Assembly (NCBI GenBank): GCA_021325675.1
Contig: JAJTCM010000007.1
Coordinates: forward strand, 62,001 to 126,000
Length of the DNA stretch: 64,000 nt
Source: Crocinitomicaceae bacterium
Lineage (GTDB): Bacteria > Bacteroidota > Bacteroidia > Flavobacteriales_D > Crocinitomicaceae
Direction: 5' to 3'
In this document: in pieces, positions 23,819 to 29,815 of the stretch
How the letters are laid out: each line of letters starts with the position of its first letter
Numbering within the stretch: the first letter of the stretch is position 1
Program-made: the position numbers and the translations under genes
The notes under the pieces: generated by a model
Databases searched by the model: none
Seen by the model: the letters and a program-made list of their open reading frames with translations, nothing else
What the model was told of the DNA's origin: nothing

Positions 23819-24613
23819 ATGAAACAATATCACGATTTATTACAGCACATTTTAGATAATGGCACGCAGAAAGGCGATCGCACGGGAACGGGAACTTTAT
23901 CTGTTTTCGGTTACCAGATGCGTTTTGACCTGAGTGAAGGCTTTCCGGCGGTGACAACGAAAAAACTGCATTTACGCTCCATTATTATTGAATTGCTGTG
24001 GTTTTTGCGTGGTGATACCAACATCAAGTACCTGAAAGACAATAACGTGAGCATCTGGGACGAATGGGCGGATGAAAACGGGAACCTGGGGCCTGTTTAC
24101 GGTCACCAGTGGCGTTCCTGGCCGGCAAAAGACGGTGGAACAATCGACCAGATCACAAACCTCATCCAGCAAATTAAAAACAACCCGAATTCGCGCCGTC
24201 TGCTCGTTTCTGCCTGGAATGTAGCCGATGTCGACCATATGGCCTTGCCGCCGTGCCATACGATGTTCCAGTTTTATGTTGCTGACGGCAAACTGAGCTG
24301 CCAGCTCTACCAGCGCAGCGCGGACACTTTTCTCGGCGTTCCTTTCAACATCGCGTCTTACGCTTTGTTAACGATGATGATCGCCCAGGTGTGTGACCTT
24401 GAGCCGGGTGAATTCATCCACACTTTCGGTGATGCGCATTTGTACAACAATCACATCGAACAGGCGCAATTGCAGTTATCCCGCGATTTACGTCCTTTGC
24501 CAACGATGAAGATCAACCCGGAAGTGAAAGATATTTTTTCCTTCACGTATGAAGATTTCGAGCTGCTGAACTACGATCCGCACCCACACATTAAAGCCGT
24601 AGTAGCGGTTTGA
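23819..24613 (+). CDS. thyA: Thymidylate synthase
   Basis: '[38 protein letters not shown]...[12 protein letters not shown]'. Confidence 0.97.
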
Positions 24614-24629
24614 TTTCTTTATAATCTAA

Positions 24630-24771
24630 CCACATAGGAACCTAGAATAATTTAGAAGTGCTTCTCTATACAAAGTGCACATGAGTAATCCCATGTTTTC
24701 CAATCTGCTATAGCTGATTCAGAGGCTATTGTTCCCTGAATACAACTCACATACAACCTGAACCTATGTGG
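24630..24771. repeat. Intergenic element with ccacatagg/cctatgtgg inverted ends
   Basis: ccacatagg (24630-24638) and cctatgtgg (24763-24771); related words at 33008-33045. Confidence 0.5.
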
Positions 24772-24816
24772 GTATGTGATTGAAAAAAACTACTTTTGAA
24801 ATCTATCCGGGAGAAT

Positions 24817-25338
24817 TTGGAGTTTGAAACTTTATACACAAAGTACAATAAAATGGTTTTCAACCTCGTGCTTCAGTATGTTCAAAACCAGGAAGATGCA
24901 CAGGAAATTACGCAGGATATTTTCCTGAAGGTCCACCAAAATCTACCCGGTTTCAATGAAAATTCAGCTGTATCCACCTGGATTTACCGCATCAGTATCA
25001 ATACTTCGCTCGATTTTATTAAATCACGTCAGCGCAAAAAACGCTGGGCAAAACTGACTTCGCTTTTTCATGCGGACAGCAGTGAAATCCGCCACGAAGC
25101 GCAACATTTCGACCATCCCGGCGTGGAACTCGAGCAGAAAGAAGCCACCCAACGGATTTTTGAGGCAATCAATGCTTTGCCGGACAAGCAGAAAACGGCT
25201 TTGATCCTGAGTAAGATCGAGCACAAAAGCCAGGCGGAAACCGCGCAAATCATGGACCTGAGCCCCAAAGCTGTGGAATCACTGATCCAGCGGGCCAAAA
25301 GTAATTTAGCGCAGAATATCAAACCAAACGAAGGATAA
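24817..25338 (+). CDS. ECF-type RNA polymerase sigma factor (candidate CnrH-like)
   Basis: 'VQNQEDAQEITQDIFLKVHQNLPGFNENSAVSTWIYRISINTSLDFI' region 2 and 'LSKIEHKSQAETAQIMDLSPKAVESLIQRAKSNL' region 4; 24817 is the second in-frame TTG, because the first (24796) sits inside a TACTTTTG box. Confidence 0.85.
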   Translation: MEFETLYTKYNKMVFNLVLQYVQNQEDAQEITQDIFLKVHQNLPGFNENSAVSTWIYRISINTSLDFIKSRQRKKRWAKLTSLFHADSSEIRHEAQHFDHPGVELEQKEATQRIFEAINALPDKQKTALILSKIEHKSQAETAQIMDLSPKAVESLIQRAKSNLAQNIKPNEG

Positions 25339-25369
25339 AACAAAAAACGTCGTCTAAAAGAAAAGAGCT

Positions 25370-25630
25370 ATGAAAGATCCATTGGAAATCATCGGGAAAA
25401 TCAAGCAGGTAGAAACACCGCCGTTTTTATACAGCCGGATATTGCAGCAGATCGAAAATTCTGCGCTGAACAAAGTTTCGCGTCCACTCGCCTGGTCGCT
25501 CGGAAGCGCTTGCGTTGCCCTATGCATTTTCAGCCTCGTAATTAGCTTCAAAGCCCGTCAAACAGATACTGCAAGCGACTTAGGACAAGGTATGAATTTA
25601 ATCCCTGAAAATTCCCTCTACTATGAATAA
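25370..25630 (+). CDS. Small single-TM protein, candidate anti-sigma factor
   Basis: Cytoplasmic N-terminus 'QVETPPFLYSRILQQIE' plus one TM segment, directly after the sigma factor. Confidence 0.55.
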   Translation: MKDPLEIIGKIKQVETPPFLYSRILQQIENSALNKVSRPLAWSLGSACVALCIFSLVISFKARQTDTASDLGQGMNLIPENSLYYE

Positions 25631-26066
25631 AGCTAAATTTTACGGGTTTCTTTGCATTGTTTTGCTGCTCTCCAACGGGTTTTTGCTTTACTTCGTGCTG
25701 CAGCCCCCGAACAGACCGGAAGGCCCGAAAAAGCTCATCATTGAAAAGCTTCACCTGGATGAAAAACAAACGGCAGCCTATGAAAAATTAATTCATGAGC
25801 ACCGGAATTCCATCAAAAAGACCGAAAAACAGATCGGACAGCTTAAGCAAAAATTGTATTCCGGATTATCTTCGGAAAATACAGCCGAAACTGATTCGCT
25901 CGTTGGCTTGCTTGGAAAAAAACAAATGCAAATCGAGAAAATCCACTGTGAGCATTTCCGTGACATCAAAGAATTATGCCGCCCCGATCAGCAAATTTAT
26001 TTCGGGGGCCTGAGCAAAGAACTGGCACGCTTATTTGATCACCGTCCACCTCATCACCGCAAATGA
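25623..26066 (+). CDS. Periplasmic heavy-metal sensor / Spy-CnrX-like protein
   Basis: N-terminal TM, 'HLDEKQTAAYEKLIHEHRNSI', 'HFRDIKELCRPDQQIYF', His-rich tail 'DHRPPHHRK'; overlaps previous ORF by 8 nt. Confidence 0.75.
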   Translation: MNKAKFYGFLCIVLLLSNGFLLYFVLQPPNRPEGPKKLIIEKLHLDEKQTAAYEKLIHEHRNSIKKTEKQIGQLKQKLYSGLSSENTAETDSLVGLLGKKQMQIEKIHCEHFRDIKELCRPDQQIYFGGLSKELARLFDHRPPHHRK

Positions 26067-26764
26067 AAAACGCGTTCCTGTTTTGCTTTTTAATCTGTTA
26101 TACGGCTTTCGGGCAGGCCAATCTTCCTGTTGAAGTCAGCTTATTTTTCAAAGGTGAAAAACTGGAGCTGGAAAAATGGTACATATACGAGAGCGAGAAA
26201 CAGAATGAGAAGGATGAAAATGTGGATAGTGTGTTATTTGAAAGCCTGCGGTTTTACCTTTCCGGTTTTGAGCTGACTAAAAAAGGAAAAAGTGTTTGGA
26301 AAGAAAAAGAAAGTTACCATTTAATTGATGCCGAAAATCCCGCTTCCTGCCAAATCAACTTGAATTTTGCGAAAAACACTGATTTTGACGGCCTGAAATT
26401 CAATTTAGGCATTGACAGCATTACCAATTCAGGCGGAGTGAAAGGCGGTGATCTTGACCCCGTAAAAGGCATGTACTGGACCTGGCAAACGGGCTATATC
26501 CATTTTAAGCTGGAAGGTAAAAGCAATCTCTGTCCTACCCGGGACAATCAATTCAGTTTGCACCTCGGAGGTTACAGCTTTTCGCAAAACACCATGCAAT
26601 CGTTAAGCTTCGATTTGAAAAATCCTGAAAAAGCTGTACTTGAGCTTGATCTCTCTGATTTTCTCCGGGGAATTGATTTCAAAAACCTCAATCACGTCAT
26701 GTCTCCAGGCGCGGAAGCTGTCCGGCTTTCTCAGCAAGCTGCCGCTTTATTCCTGCTCCGATGA
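26063..26764 (+). CDS. MbnP family (copper-binding) protein
   Basis: 'LRFYLSGFELTKKG...FNLGIDSITNSGGVKGGDLDPVKGMYWTWQTGYIHFKLEG' hallmark; followed by a di-haem peroxidase. Confidence 0.85.
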   Translation: MKNAFLFCFLICYTAFGQANLPVEVSLFFKGEKLELEKWYIYESEKQNEKDENVDSVLFESLRFYLSGFELTKKGKSVWKEKESYHLIDAENPASCQINLNFAKNTDFDGLKFNLGIDSITNSGGVKGGDLDPVKGMYWTWQTGYIHFKLEGKSNLCPTRDNQFSLHLGGYSFSQNTMQSLSFDLKNPEKAVLELDLSDFLRGIDFKNLNHVMSPGAEAVRLSQQAAALFLLR

Positions 26765-27795
26765 AACAGCTTTTGTATCTTTTTGTGCTCGTTTCTGCGG
26801 CTTTGCTGGCTTTCAGGAACCCCAAAGAAAAATTGTTCACCATTCCTAAAAAATGGCCAAAACCGTTGTATGATTTTTCACAGAATAAGCTGAGTGAAGC
26901 CAAAATCAAGTTGGGACGGGCCTTGTTTTACGATCCGCTTTTATCTGCCGACAACACTATTTCCTGCGCTTCCTGCCATTCGCCGTATAACGCTTTTACA
27001 CATGTTGACCACGACCTGAGCCACGGGATCAATGACCGCATCGGGACGCGCAACTCCCCTGCCCTGATGAACCTCGCCTGGAAAAGCAGTTTTATGTGGG
27101 ACGGAGCAATTGCGAACCTTGATATGCAATCTTTAGCGCCTATTTCCCACCCCGACGAAATGGGAAGCTCCATCGAAAAAGTTGTTTCAGAGCTGAATCG
27201 CTCGGCGCTTTATCGCAAAGCTTTTTACCAGGCTTACGGAGATTCTCTTATCACCGGGGAAAAAACGCTCAAAGCCCTGAGCCAGTTTATGCTTTCCCTG
27301 GTCAGCTCGGATTCGAAATACGACCGCGTGATGTTGAAGCAAGAACAATTTACTGAACAGGAAGCCAGAGGTTACTCCTTATTCAGGCAAAACTGCGCTG
27401 CGTGTCACCGCGAACCCTTATTTACCAACGATGCTTTTGCCAACAACGGGCTTCCGGTTGACCCAAGTCTGAATGACTGCGGAAAAATGAAAATTTCCAA
27501 AAAAAGCGCAGATTCCCTCCTGTTCAAAGTGCCGACTTTACGTAACCTGGAATATTCATTTCCTTACATGCATGATGGCCGTTTTAAAAAGCTCAGCCAG
27601 GTGATCAACCATTACGTTTCGGGCATTCAGCACAGTAAAACGCTCGCCCCGGAATTGCAAAAACCAATTATTTTGTCGTCCAATGAAAAAGTCGATTTGC
27701 TGGCTTTCCTGCTGACGCTCAGTGACAAAAACTTCGTTTTCAATCCTGATTTTGCCTACCCGAAAGATTTTTTCACACCGGCAGCGAAGGATTAA
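26761..27795 (+). CDS. Di-haem cytochrome c peroxidase / MbnH-MauG-like protein
   Basis: Two CxxCH motifs (CASCH, CAACH), 'LGRALFYDPLLSADNTISCASCH'; partner of the adjacent MbnP. Confidence 0.9.
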   Translation: MKQLLYLFVLVSAALLAFRNPKEKLFTIPKKWPKPLYDFSQNKLSEAKIKLGRALFYDPLLSADNTISCASCHSPYNAFTHVDHDLSHGINDRIGTRNSPALMNLAWKSSFMWDGAIANLDMQSLAPISHPDEMGSSIEKVVSELNRSALYRKAFYQAYGDSLITGEKTLKALSQFMLSLVSSDSKYDRVMLKQEQFTEQEARGYSLFRQNCAACHREPLFTNDAFANNGLPVDPSLNDCGKMKISKKSADSLLFKVPTLRNLEYSFPYMHDGRFKKLSQVINHYVSGIQHSKTLAPELQKPIILSSNEKVDLLAFLLTLSDKNFVFNPDFAYPKDFFTPAAKD

Positions 27796-27845
27796 ACCAA
27801 AGCTGTCGTCTAACTGAACAACGAAAACTTTAAACGCTTCAATCT

Positions 27846-29210
27846 ATGAAAAAAAACACGGTAATATTAGCCCTGGCCTTAGGCTCAACTTTGGCTTTCG
27901 GGCAAACAAACCCGGCAATAACCCAATGGCTGCAAAATACCACCGGAATCCTCGGCAGGCATTATGTGAGCGGCAACTCTACCCCTATCCAGGATAATGT
28001 GGAGGCCAATGTGCAAACCGTTCAATATTCAGGCACTTCTGTTTACGTGAGCACAAACGGGATCCCGGCGTATATTACCGGGCCGTTTCTCGACGGAAAT
28101 CCTTCCCAGGCTACGGATCAGAATGCGATTTTTAAATTTCCGCTGAACCCGGTGGAAAATACAGGAACACCAACCGCTACAACGATGGGTAATATCGGTG
28201 TTTTCATTAATGGCGTTGCCTTATTTGATTACCGCGACGGTGTTTCCTGGCAAAGCTCGTCCAGCTCACTGAAAGGCGGCCCTCTTGGCGGTCAGGGCGA
28301 TAATATCTGGAACAGGGATGCTATTGTTGCTGAGCGTGCCGGATTTGATTGTTCCAAAGGCCACCCGGCGATGGGAAATTACCACCACCACCAAAACCCT
28401 TCGGCTTTCAATCTTGACCTGGCAGTTATTTCTAATGTTTGCGATCTCTACACTGCTGACGGCTTGTATGCCATTGATGACCATGCACATTCTCCATTGA
28501 TCGGTTTCGCCTACGACGGCTTTCCTATTTACGGGGCTTACGGTTATGCAAATACGGACGGAACAGGAGGAATTGTACGCATCAAATCCGGATATTCGTT
28601 ACGCAACATCAGCGTTCGCACACATTATTCTGACGGAACGGATGTATCCGATGGCCCGGCTGTCAGTACAACGTATCCTTTGGGCCTTTTCAGGGAAGAC
28701 TACGAATTTATTTCCAACGCTTCCCAGGATTACCTCGACGAGCATAACGGCCGTTTTTGCGTAACACCGGAATACCCGAATGGAACGTATGCGTATTTCT
28801 GTACGGTTGATGCAAACTGGAACTCTGCTTACCCGTATGCTGTTGGCCCGACTTTTTACGGAATCAAAACTGCTGCTAAAGTGACAAGCATTACAGAAAC
28901 CGTTACCACGTATGAAGCAACTTCAGTTGTCGGTGAGCTCGCGCTTGAAAACCTCGATGTAACGGTTTACCCGAACCCGGCAAGTGATTTGGTCGCTATC
29001 CAGGTACCGAAAGCCATGCAGGAAAATTACATCATGACGCTTTTTGACCTGAACGGCAAAAAAGTCATGGAAACCACCCTTTTTCAAGGGAGCACTATAG
29101 CACATTTCGATACACGTACGTTGTACAGCGGCGAATACAACCTGGAGATCCGGAGCGGGGACAATCCCGATAGCTATCGGAACGTGAAAAAGATCATTCT
29201 TGAAAAATAA
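27846..29210 (+). CDS. YHYH domain-containing protein with T9SS C-terminal sorting domain
   Basis: 'GHPAMGNYHHHQNP...LIGFAYDGFPIYGAYGY' YHYH-domain signature; C-terminal 'VTVYPNPASDLVAIQV...NVKKIILEK'. Confidence 0.88.
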   Translation: MKKNTVILALALGSTLAFGQTNPAITQWLQNTTGILGRHYVSGNSTPIQDNVEANVQTVQYSGTSVYVSTNGIPAYITGPFLDGNPSQATDQNAIFKFPLNPVENTGTPTATTMGNIGVFINGVALFDYRDGVSWQSSSSSLKGGPLGGQGDNIWNRDAIVAERAGFDCSKGHPAMGNYHHHQNPSAFNLDLAVISNVCDLYTADGLYAIDDHAHSPLIGFAYDGFPIYGAYGYANTDGTGGIVRIKSGYSLRNISVRTHYSDGTDVSDGPAVSTTYPLGLFREDYEFISNASQDYLDEHNGRFCVTPEYPNGTYAYFCTVDANWNSAYPYAVGPTFYGIKTAAKVTSITETVTTYEATSVVGELALENLDVTVYPNPASDLVAIQVPKAMQENYIMTLFDLNGKKVMETTLFQGSTIAHFDTRTLYSGEYNLEIRSGDNPDSYRNVKKIILEK

Positions 29211-29290
29211 GTAACCACTATTTTCGATCACAGTAAAAGCATGGCCCGCAAGCCGTGCTTTTTTTGCTTTTGAATTCCAACTAAATCCCG

Positions 29291-29298
29291 TAATTTTG
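29291..29298 (+). promoter_or_regulatory. -7 box TAATTTTG 4 nt upstream of the folA ATG
   Basis: Match to TAnnTTTG; ATG at 29303. Confidence 0.5.
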
Positions 29299-29302
29299 CC
29301 GC

Positions 29303-29815
29303 ATGAAAGTCAAATTGATCGTAGCAATGGATGCCAGTTCCGGAATCGGGAAAAACAATGATTTGCTCTGGCATTTGCCGGCCGATATGAAATTTTTCAG
29401 GGAAACTACCACAGGCCACATTGTTGTTATGGGACGCAAAAACTACGAATCAATCCCGGAACGCTTTCGGCCGCTGCCAAACCGGGAAAATGCCGTGCTG
29501 ACCCGCCAGGCTGATTTCGAAGCGCCGGGCTGCGTTGTTTTCAATTCACTGACAGCCTGCCTGGAACATTACCGCAATGAAAGCGAGCGGATTGTTTTTA
29601 TCATTGGCGGCGGTCAAATCTACAACGAAGCTTTGCGCCTGGACTGCGTGGACGAAATGTTCATCACCCATGTGGAAACCAGCCTCGATGCCGATACTTT
29701 TTTCCCTGCCTGCGATCCTGCCGACTGGGAAGCGGAAATCATCCTGGAACACCCTGCTGATGAAAAAAATCCGTATGCGTTTACCGTGAAAAAATACACC
29801 CGGACCAGATCATAA
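29303..29815 (+). CDS. folA: Dihydrofolate reductase
   Basis: 'MDASSGIGKNNDLLWHLPADMKFFRETTTGHIVVMGRKNYESIP'. Confidence 0.96.
   Translation: MKVKLIVAMDASSGIGKNNDLLWHLPADMKFFRETTTGHIVVMGRKNYESIPERFRPLPNRENAVLTRQADFEAPGCVVFNSLTACLEHYRNESERIVFIIGGGQIYNEALRLDCVDEMFITHVETSLDADTFFPACDPADWEAEIILEHPADEKNPYAFTVKKYTRTRS

Follow-up and report, generated by a model that had tools for sequence, protein, structure and literature searches.

A candidate ECF sigma factor regulon linking MbnP/MbnH with a YHYH protein in a Crocinitomicaceae genome

What does an extracytoplasmic function (ECF) sigma factor control when it is found at the head of genes of a copper-protein family? The question is raised by six genes in a 64,000-nucleotide stretch of DNA from a Crocinitomicaceae bacterium (GenBank assembly GCA_021325675.1, contig JAJTCM010000007.1, positions 62,001 to 126,000 of the forward strand), the whole of which is called the window here. 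A triad composed of an ECF sigma factor, an 86-aa protein with a single transmembrane (TM) helix and a periplasmic sensor is followed by MbnP, the di-haem enzyme MbnH (the pair is written MbnPH below) and a YHYH protein bearing a sorting tail of the type IX secretion system (T9SS). A previous sequence-only reading had taken the set for a self-regulated system for sensing and handling copper or another metal. We consider it rather probable that the operon is an envelope-signalling regulon that limits itself and serves exported copper/redox proteins, and what is new here is a sharply defined promoter that would join the anti-sigma, sensor and MbnPH genes and the YHYH gene in one regulon. Manesis, in 2021, reportedly studied the kynurenine of MbnP; in the literature searched, which lacked the main study on that subject, no account of the operon, its regulon or its promoter was found.

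Promoter motif and gene neighbourhood

An ECF-type motif, GCGAAGGAT-N13/14-GTCGTCTAA, lies in the gap between the sigma and anti-sigma genes (P1) and again 5′ of the YHYH gene (P2). The two sites are near-identical, the 3.57-Mb genome has no other exact match, and their boxes resemble the RpoE-type AACTT/TCTGA. In a promoter matrix built from 23 sites of other loci, P2 and P1 scored 35.8 and 35.4 bits against 6.8 bits for the next non-operon site in the window, although the training sites were chosen with a pattern like that of the window, so that these scores are not fully independent. A less circular test is the exact search of 396 genomes, which gave 23 places, seven of them preceding the anti-sigma, YHYH or di-haem peroxidase gene of such systems. 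Across the loci compared, 62 motif matches were on the operon strand versus 7 on the opposite strand, and 33 of the 62 precede an anti-sigma or YHYH gene. Inspection of six further places of the genome that fit the motif with one mismatch gave no convincing additional regulon gene.

In other genomes (loci of the comparison set carry L-numbers and genomes G-numbers), the motif stands directly 5′ of multicopper oxidase genes in L148, L162 and L171. In G191, a single site is followed by genes for YHYH, a multicopper oxidase, an AhpC/TSA protein and a sulfatase, on a contig other than that of the triad with MbnPH; in G012 (L266, contig C1, 4002-5318), the motif precedes the gene of a 401-aa second di-haem peroxidase far from the operon, which is likely a further regulon member. 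The shared promoter links YHYH and MbnPH, and in certain species a multicopper oxidase as well, with what is probably a single sigma factor. A second motif flavour, CGCAAGTTT ... CATCTAA, defined by a loose pattern, precedes the sigma and YHYH genes in a sister set; on a sigma tree with 52 labelled loci, three changes of flavour suffice, and motif type follows the sigma phylogeny.

The promoter stands after the sigma gene and before the anti-sigma and YHYH genes, which means that self-regulation in this window would be a feedback through the anti-sigma factor and the sensor; P1 is expected to drive the genes from the anti-sigma factor to MbnH. The promoter evidence supports one regulon; an autoregulated sigma gene is not visible in the window. 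When the motif was sought 5′ of sigma genes, the window ranked only 505, its site being in the sigma/anti-sigma gap instead, and Gibbs sampling on the regions upstream of sigma genes returned only a weak mixed motif.

In the neighbourhood check set beforehand, the synteny was conserved: the gene set recurs in dozens of genomes, more than chance would give. Of 396 Bacteroidota genomes, 97 have MbnP and 41 have YHYH; within the window's family, MbnP is present in 143 of 148 genomes. Among 40 loci of the family in which the MbnP gene is short, a hand-picked class and not a random draw, the sigma gene adjoins MbnP or MbnH in 33; the sensor is present in nearly all of these, and YHYH in most. In a phylum-list sample of 40 loci, two being the other MbnPs of the window genome, the triad occurs outside the family at three (L136, L139 and L140), and by an eye count 10 of 27 strong YHYH places of the phylum sample lie within about 4 kb of MbnP. 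The best 80 YHYH loci in named genomes, 27 of which hold sigma, sensor, MbnP and MbnH together, include metagenome-assembled genomes labelled Chitinophagaceae, Saprospiraceae, Crocinitomicaceae, Ignavibacteria and Kapaibacterium, as well as the isolate Flavobacterium sedimenticola YZ-48, whose locus (L182) has all parts of the operon. The genes are also found reordered yet linked, as in L077 (MbnP-MbnH-YHYH ahead of the triad), L221 (triad-YHYH-MbnP-MbnH) and L222, and this varied order argues for a functional and not merely inherited link; in G463 and G510, a locus of triad and YHYH lies apart from MbnPH. On the MbnH tree, the YHYH- or triad-linked MbnHs fall nearly all in one set of 97 of the 132 rows.

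The distribution also bears on the alternative that the triad is a mere linked neighbour with a stress regulon of its own, MbnPH and YHYH not being its targets. As would suit it, 25 of the best 80 YHYH loci have MbnP and MbnH with no adjacent triad, the MbnH tree shows about 16 changes of the triad label, and G180 (L273, 2409-3878) has a triad with the motif in the sigma/anti-sigma gap and neither MbnPH nor YHYH adjacent, the same sensor type with, presumably, other targets. The same promoter, however, stands 5′ of both the anti-sigma and the YHYH genes, not only in the window but also in other genomes, even where YHYH is on another contig, and we hold this alternative to be very improbable.

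The signalling triad and its possible ligand

The sigma factor has the ECF regions 2 and 4 (Pfam); its nearest solved structures are SigH/RpoE, and CnrH (4cxf) was matched at 3.8e-8. The 86-aa protein, for which a single TM helix is predicted from residue 40 on, has no family match above cut-off. Its location and single TM helix are kept in 33 loci, an Asn in the TM helix is almost invariant among the homologues, and the protein is probably a class II (CnrY-like) anti-sigma factor. Gene content and recurrence agree with the proposed architecture of an ECF sigma factor, a small TM protein and a periplasmic sensor.

The AlphaFold2 model of the sensor (predicted local distance difference test score, pLDDT, 91.9) consists of a TM helix and a four-helix domain. 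In Foldseek, CnrX chains hold most of the top PDB places (probability 1.0, TMt 0.70-0.77), with E-values of only about 0.05; the profile search also matches NccX at 0.0055, and ZraP and Spy are weaker fold or profile matches. The sensor alone falls under the Metal_resist cut-off (11.7 versus 29.2 bits), so that its CnrX kinship rests on the homologues and the fold, not on its own score. The His-rich tail that had been pointed out is present in the window protein but is not conserved among the homologues. In contrast, His60, Cys119 and the TM residue Asn18 are each kept in 63 of 65 sensors, and His111, at the position of CnrX His119, in 42; a helix–helix contact between Asn18 and the TM Asn of the anti-sigma factor is a guess. 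Beyond Met123, the ligand set of CnrX includes His42, His46 and His119. No His is found in the region of the sensor equivalent to His42/46, and the position of Met123, which is required for CnrX signalling (PMC7689651), is I, V or L in all 65 sensors. That is to say, the sensor is CnrX-like in its modelled fold, but the Ni/Co ligand set of CnrX is missing.

These residues are central to an alternative in which the sensor, a Spy/ZraP-like helical hairpin with a near-invariant Cys, would read envelope or redox stress in the form of oxidants or unfolded proteins, with MbnH, YHYH, a peroxiredoxin and the multicopper oxidase making up an extracytoplasmic oxidant response. The conservation of Cys119 and the consistent absence of the CnrX Met are in its favour, as are the weaker matches to ZraP and Spy, the AhpC/TSA gene in the G191 unit and the motif-led second di-haem peroxidase of G012; on the other side, CnrX is clearly the best fold, the near-invariant His60 together with His111 resembles a metal site, and MbnP belongs to a copper-protein family. 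We regard a stress signal as unlikely, while giving it more weight than the other alternatives.

The exported module and the proposed mechanism

MbnP scores 136.7 bits against the 27-bit gathering score of PF20243, and its W139xW141, H167 and M137 are kept in at least 97% of 132 Bacteroidota MbnPs (W139 and W141 in 97-100%). MbnH, which adjoins it, has a CCP_MauG domain with two CxxCH motifs (residues 69-73 and 212-216) and matches the MbnH structure 6e1c at 1.2e-37. Pfam domains, adjacency and the conserved WxW and His thus bear out the earlier identification of the pair. It is known that MbnPH pairs occur far outside methanobactin producers (PMC3621798) and within copper operons of other bacteria (PMC9426467), and no mbnA, mbnB or mbnC was recognised among the neighbouring window ORFs, which is a result for these neighbours and not for the whole genome. 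Another MbnPH context recurs in the Bacteroidota, in most of L106-L134, where a ~125-aa Cys-containing protein, MbnP, MbnH and a ~310-aa protein starting with CDICGC (Phenol_MetA_deg in L107) stand in a row; MbnPH is common to both contexts, whereas this one has no triad, YHYH or such promoter, and no motif was found 5′ of its MbnP among the loci scanned. The window genome has a second MbnP (L002, G000 C1:449721), with its own MbnH (L123), and this MbnP itself seems to be exported, because it bears a T9SS sorting tail.

In the YHYH protein, H173, H180, H182, H215 and D224 are invariant in 32 homologues, including paralogues. From its His/Asp residues YHYH has been predicted to be a Zn-dependent hydrolase (PMC7824862), and the four conserved His and one Asp are in line with that predicted metal site. 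The structure prediction, from an alignment of 32 close rows that is too shallow, is of low confidence (mean pLDDT 49). Export through the T9SS, as had been proposed, is supported by the PF18962 tail and by the T9SS component GldN encoded in the genome (3.6e-54). Multicopper oxidases adjoin YHYH/MbnPH in other neighbourhoods, and those of L148 and L162 were confirmed to carry a T9SS Por tail. Tandem YHYH paralogues occur in L087, L092, L202 and L206, three of the four loci adjoining MbnPH.

The zinc prediction leads to a further alternative, in which Zn, Ni, Co or Mn, not copper, would be the metal handled and YHYH would be a zinc-dependent hydrolase, and to which the sensing of Ni/Co by CnrX and NccX would also be suited. 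However, the Ni/Co ligands of CnrX are missing from the sensor, and the promoter is common to multicopper oxidases, not efflux pumps; this alternative appears quite improbable. Copper is the best-supported candidate for both signal and cargo, with indirect support from the multicopper oxidase genes of these neighbourhoods, of which three directly follow the motif, and from the conserved WxW of MbnP.

In the regulon so understood, the 86-aa protein would hold the sigma factor at the inner membrane, and the CnrX-fold sensor beside it would shift its shape upon binding a periplasmic ligand, probably copper, at or near His60/His111. The freed sigma factor would then bring RNA polymerase to the motif promoters, P1 raising the anti-sigma factor (its own brake), the sensor, MbnP and MbnH, and P2 raising YHYH. 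MbnH would oxidise a Trp of MbnP to kynurenine and thereby make a copper site, and the exported YHYH would be a metal-dependent protein at work outside the cell, joined there in certain species by a multicopper oxidase that also leaves through the T9SS. More tentatively, a new His60/His111/Cys119 arrangement may sense copper, or else the very reaction of MbnH with MbnP, and drive an exported copper-enzyme module across many families of the Bacteroidota, with YHYH as a new secreted copper enzyme or carrier; this broader proposal is possible and clearly the less probable of the two. With one promoter shared by the recurring set, the function of YHYH becomes testable; the regulon would also offer an inducible readout and metal-site mutants.

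Several observations weigh against the copper regulon. With the CnrX ligand set not kept, a metal signal is not assured; 16 of 68 triad loci have no motif under the patterns used; the window's 86-aa protein has Ser in place of the TM Asn of its homologues, and the anti-sigma profile matched none of the solved structures, with no detectable homology to CnrY. MbnP falls short of the TIGR04052 equivalog cut-off (44.3 versus 140 bits), and the top NCBIfam match of MbnH, TIGR04039 at 201 bits, is below its cut-off of 362.85. Moreover, a search of the window's own genome found no multicopper oxidase, and a cuproenzyme client is not general to such loci.

Compared with CnrYXH/NccYXH of Cupriavidus, the operon shares the three-part architecture, a small single-TM protein as probable anti-sigma factor, the membrane-anchored sensor of CnrX fold and the adjacent target genes; it differs in the sensor ligands, in a sigma factor nearer RpoE than CnrH, in targets that are MbnPH/YHYH and not an RND efflux pump, and in a promoter placed in the sigma/anti-sigma gap. 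The operon would work like CnrYXH, while membership in that system fails on the ligand set and the target genes; the CnrX fold would here be wired to something besides metal efflux. With MbnP/MbnH (CorA/CorB, MopE/SACCP) it shares the adjacent pair, the WxW and His of MbnP and the two CxxCH of MbnH, but not scores above the equivalog cut-offs; it also differs in lying in an operon with an ECF triad and YHYH, with no methanobactin genes recognised beside it. The YHYH protein resembles others of PF14240 in its domain and invariant His/Asp, and differs from them in its T9SS tail and its tie to MbnPH and an ECF regulon.

Operon layout and flanking sequences

The open reading frames (ORFs) of the window confirm six plus-strand genes in the order sigma, anti-sigma, sensor, MbnP, MbnH and YHYH (Table 1), and the overlaps given earlier are exact: 8 nt between anti-sigma and sensor, 4 nt between sensor and MbnP and 4 nt between MbnP and MbnH. 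Gaps of 31 nt (sigma to anti-sigma) and 50 nt (MbnH to YHYH) hold the remaining junctions. The unit had been said to begin at 24791, where there is no start codon; the ORF opens at TTG 24796, and the starts of homologues favour TTG 24817. An Rfam scan of the region gave no family, and sigma-70 promoter-like sites showed no excess over shuffles.

Table 1. Coordinates in the window of the operon genes, candidate promoters and terminator-like hairpin
Feature	Position	Strand	Evidence
ECF sigma factor, 180 aa from TTG 24796	24796..25338	+	Pfam Sigma70_r2 2.2e-15, Sigma70_r4_2 3.9e-15
Candidate ECF-type promoter P1, sigma/anti-sigma gap, AAGGAT-N14-CGTCTAA	25331..25357	+	Matrix 35.4 bits
86-aa single-TM protein, probable class II (CnrY-like) anti-sigma factor	25370..25630	+	Position, one TM helix
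Membrane-anchored periplasmic sensor of CnrX fold, 147 aa	25623..26066	+	AlphaFold2 model, PDB fold matches
MbnP-family protein, 233 aa, signal-peptide-like N-terminal stretch	26063..26764	+	PF20243 1.2e-39
MbnH/MauG/CcpA-type di-haem enzyme, 344 aa	26761..27795	+	PF03150 (CCP_MauG) 5.7e-53
Candidate ECF-type promoter P2, 5′ of YHYH, AAGGAT-N14-CGTCTAA	27787..27813	+	Matrix 35.8 bits, top site in 64-kb window
YHYH-domain protein with T9SS C-terminal sorting domain, 454 aa	27846..29210	+	PF14240 8.4e-59, PF18962 (Por_Secre_tail) 4.6e-10
Terminator-like hairpin ending the transcription unit	29235..29262	+	11-pair stem, then T-rich tail

The operon sits between thyA and folA (window 23819-29815). 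In the same-genus genome G428 (L229), the gap between thyA and folA holds a 462-aa CapA-like gene, and MbnP-MbnH-YHYH is located elsewhere. An inverted repeat, TCACATAC/GTATGTGA, lies 5′ of the sigma gene at window positions 24747-24779.

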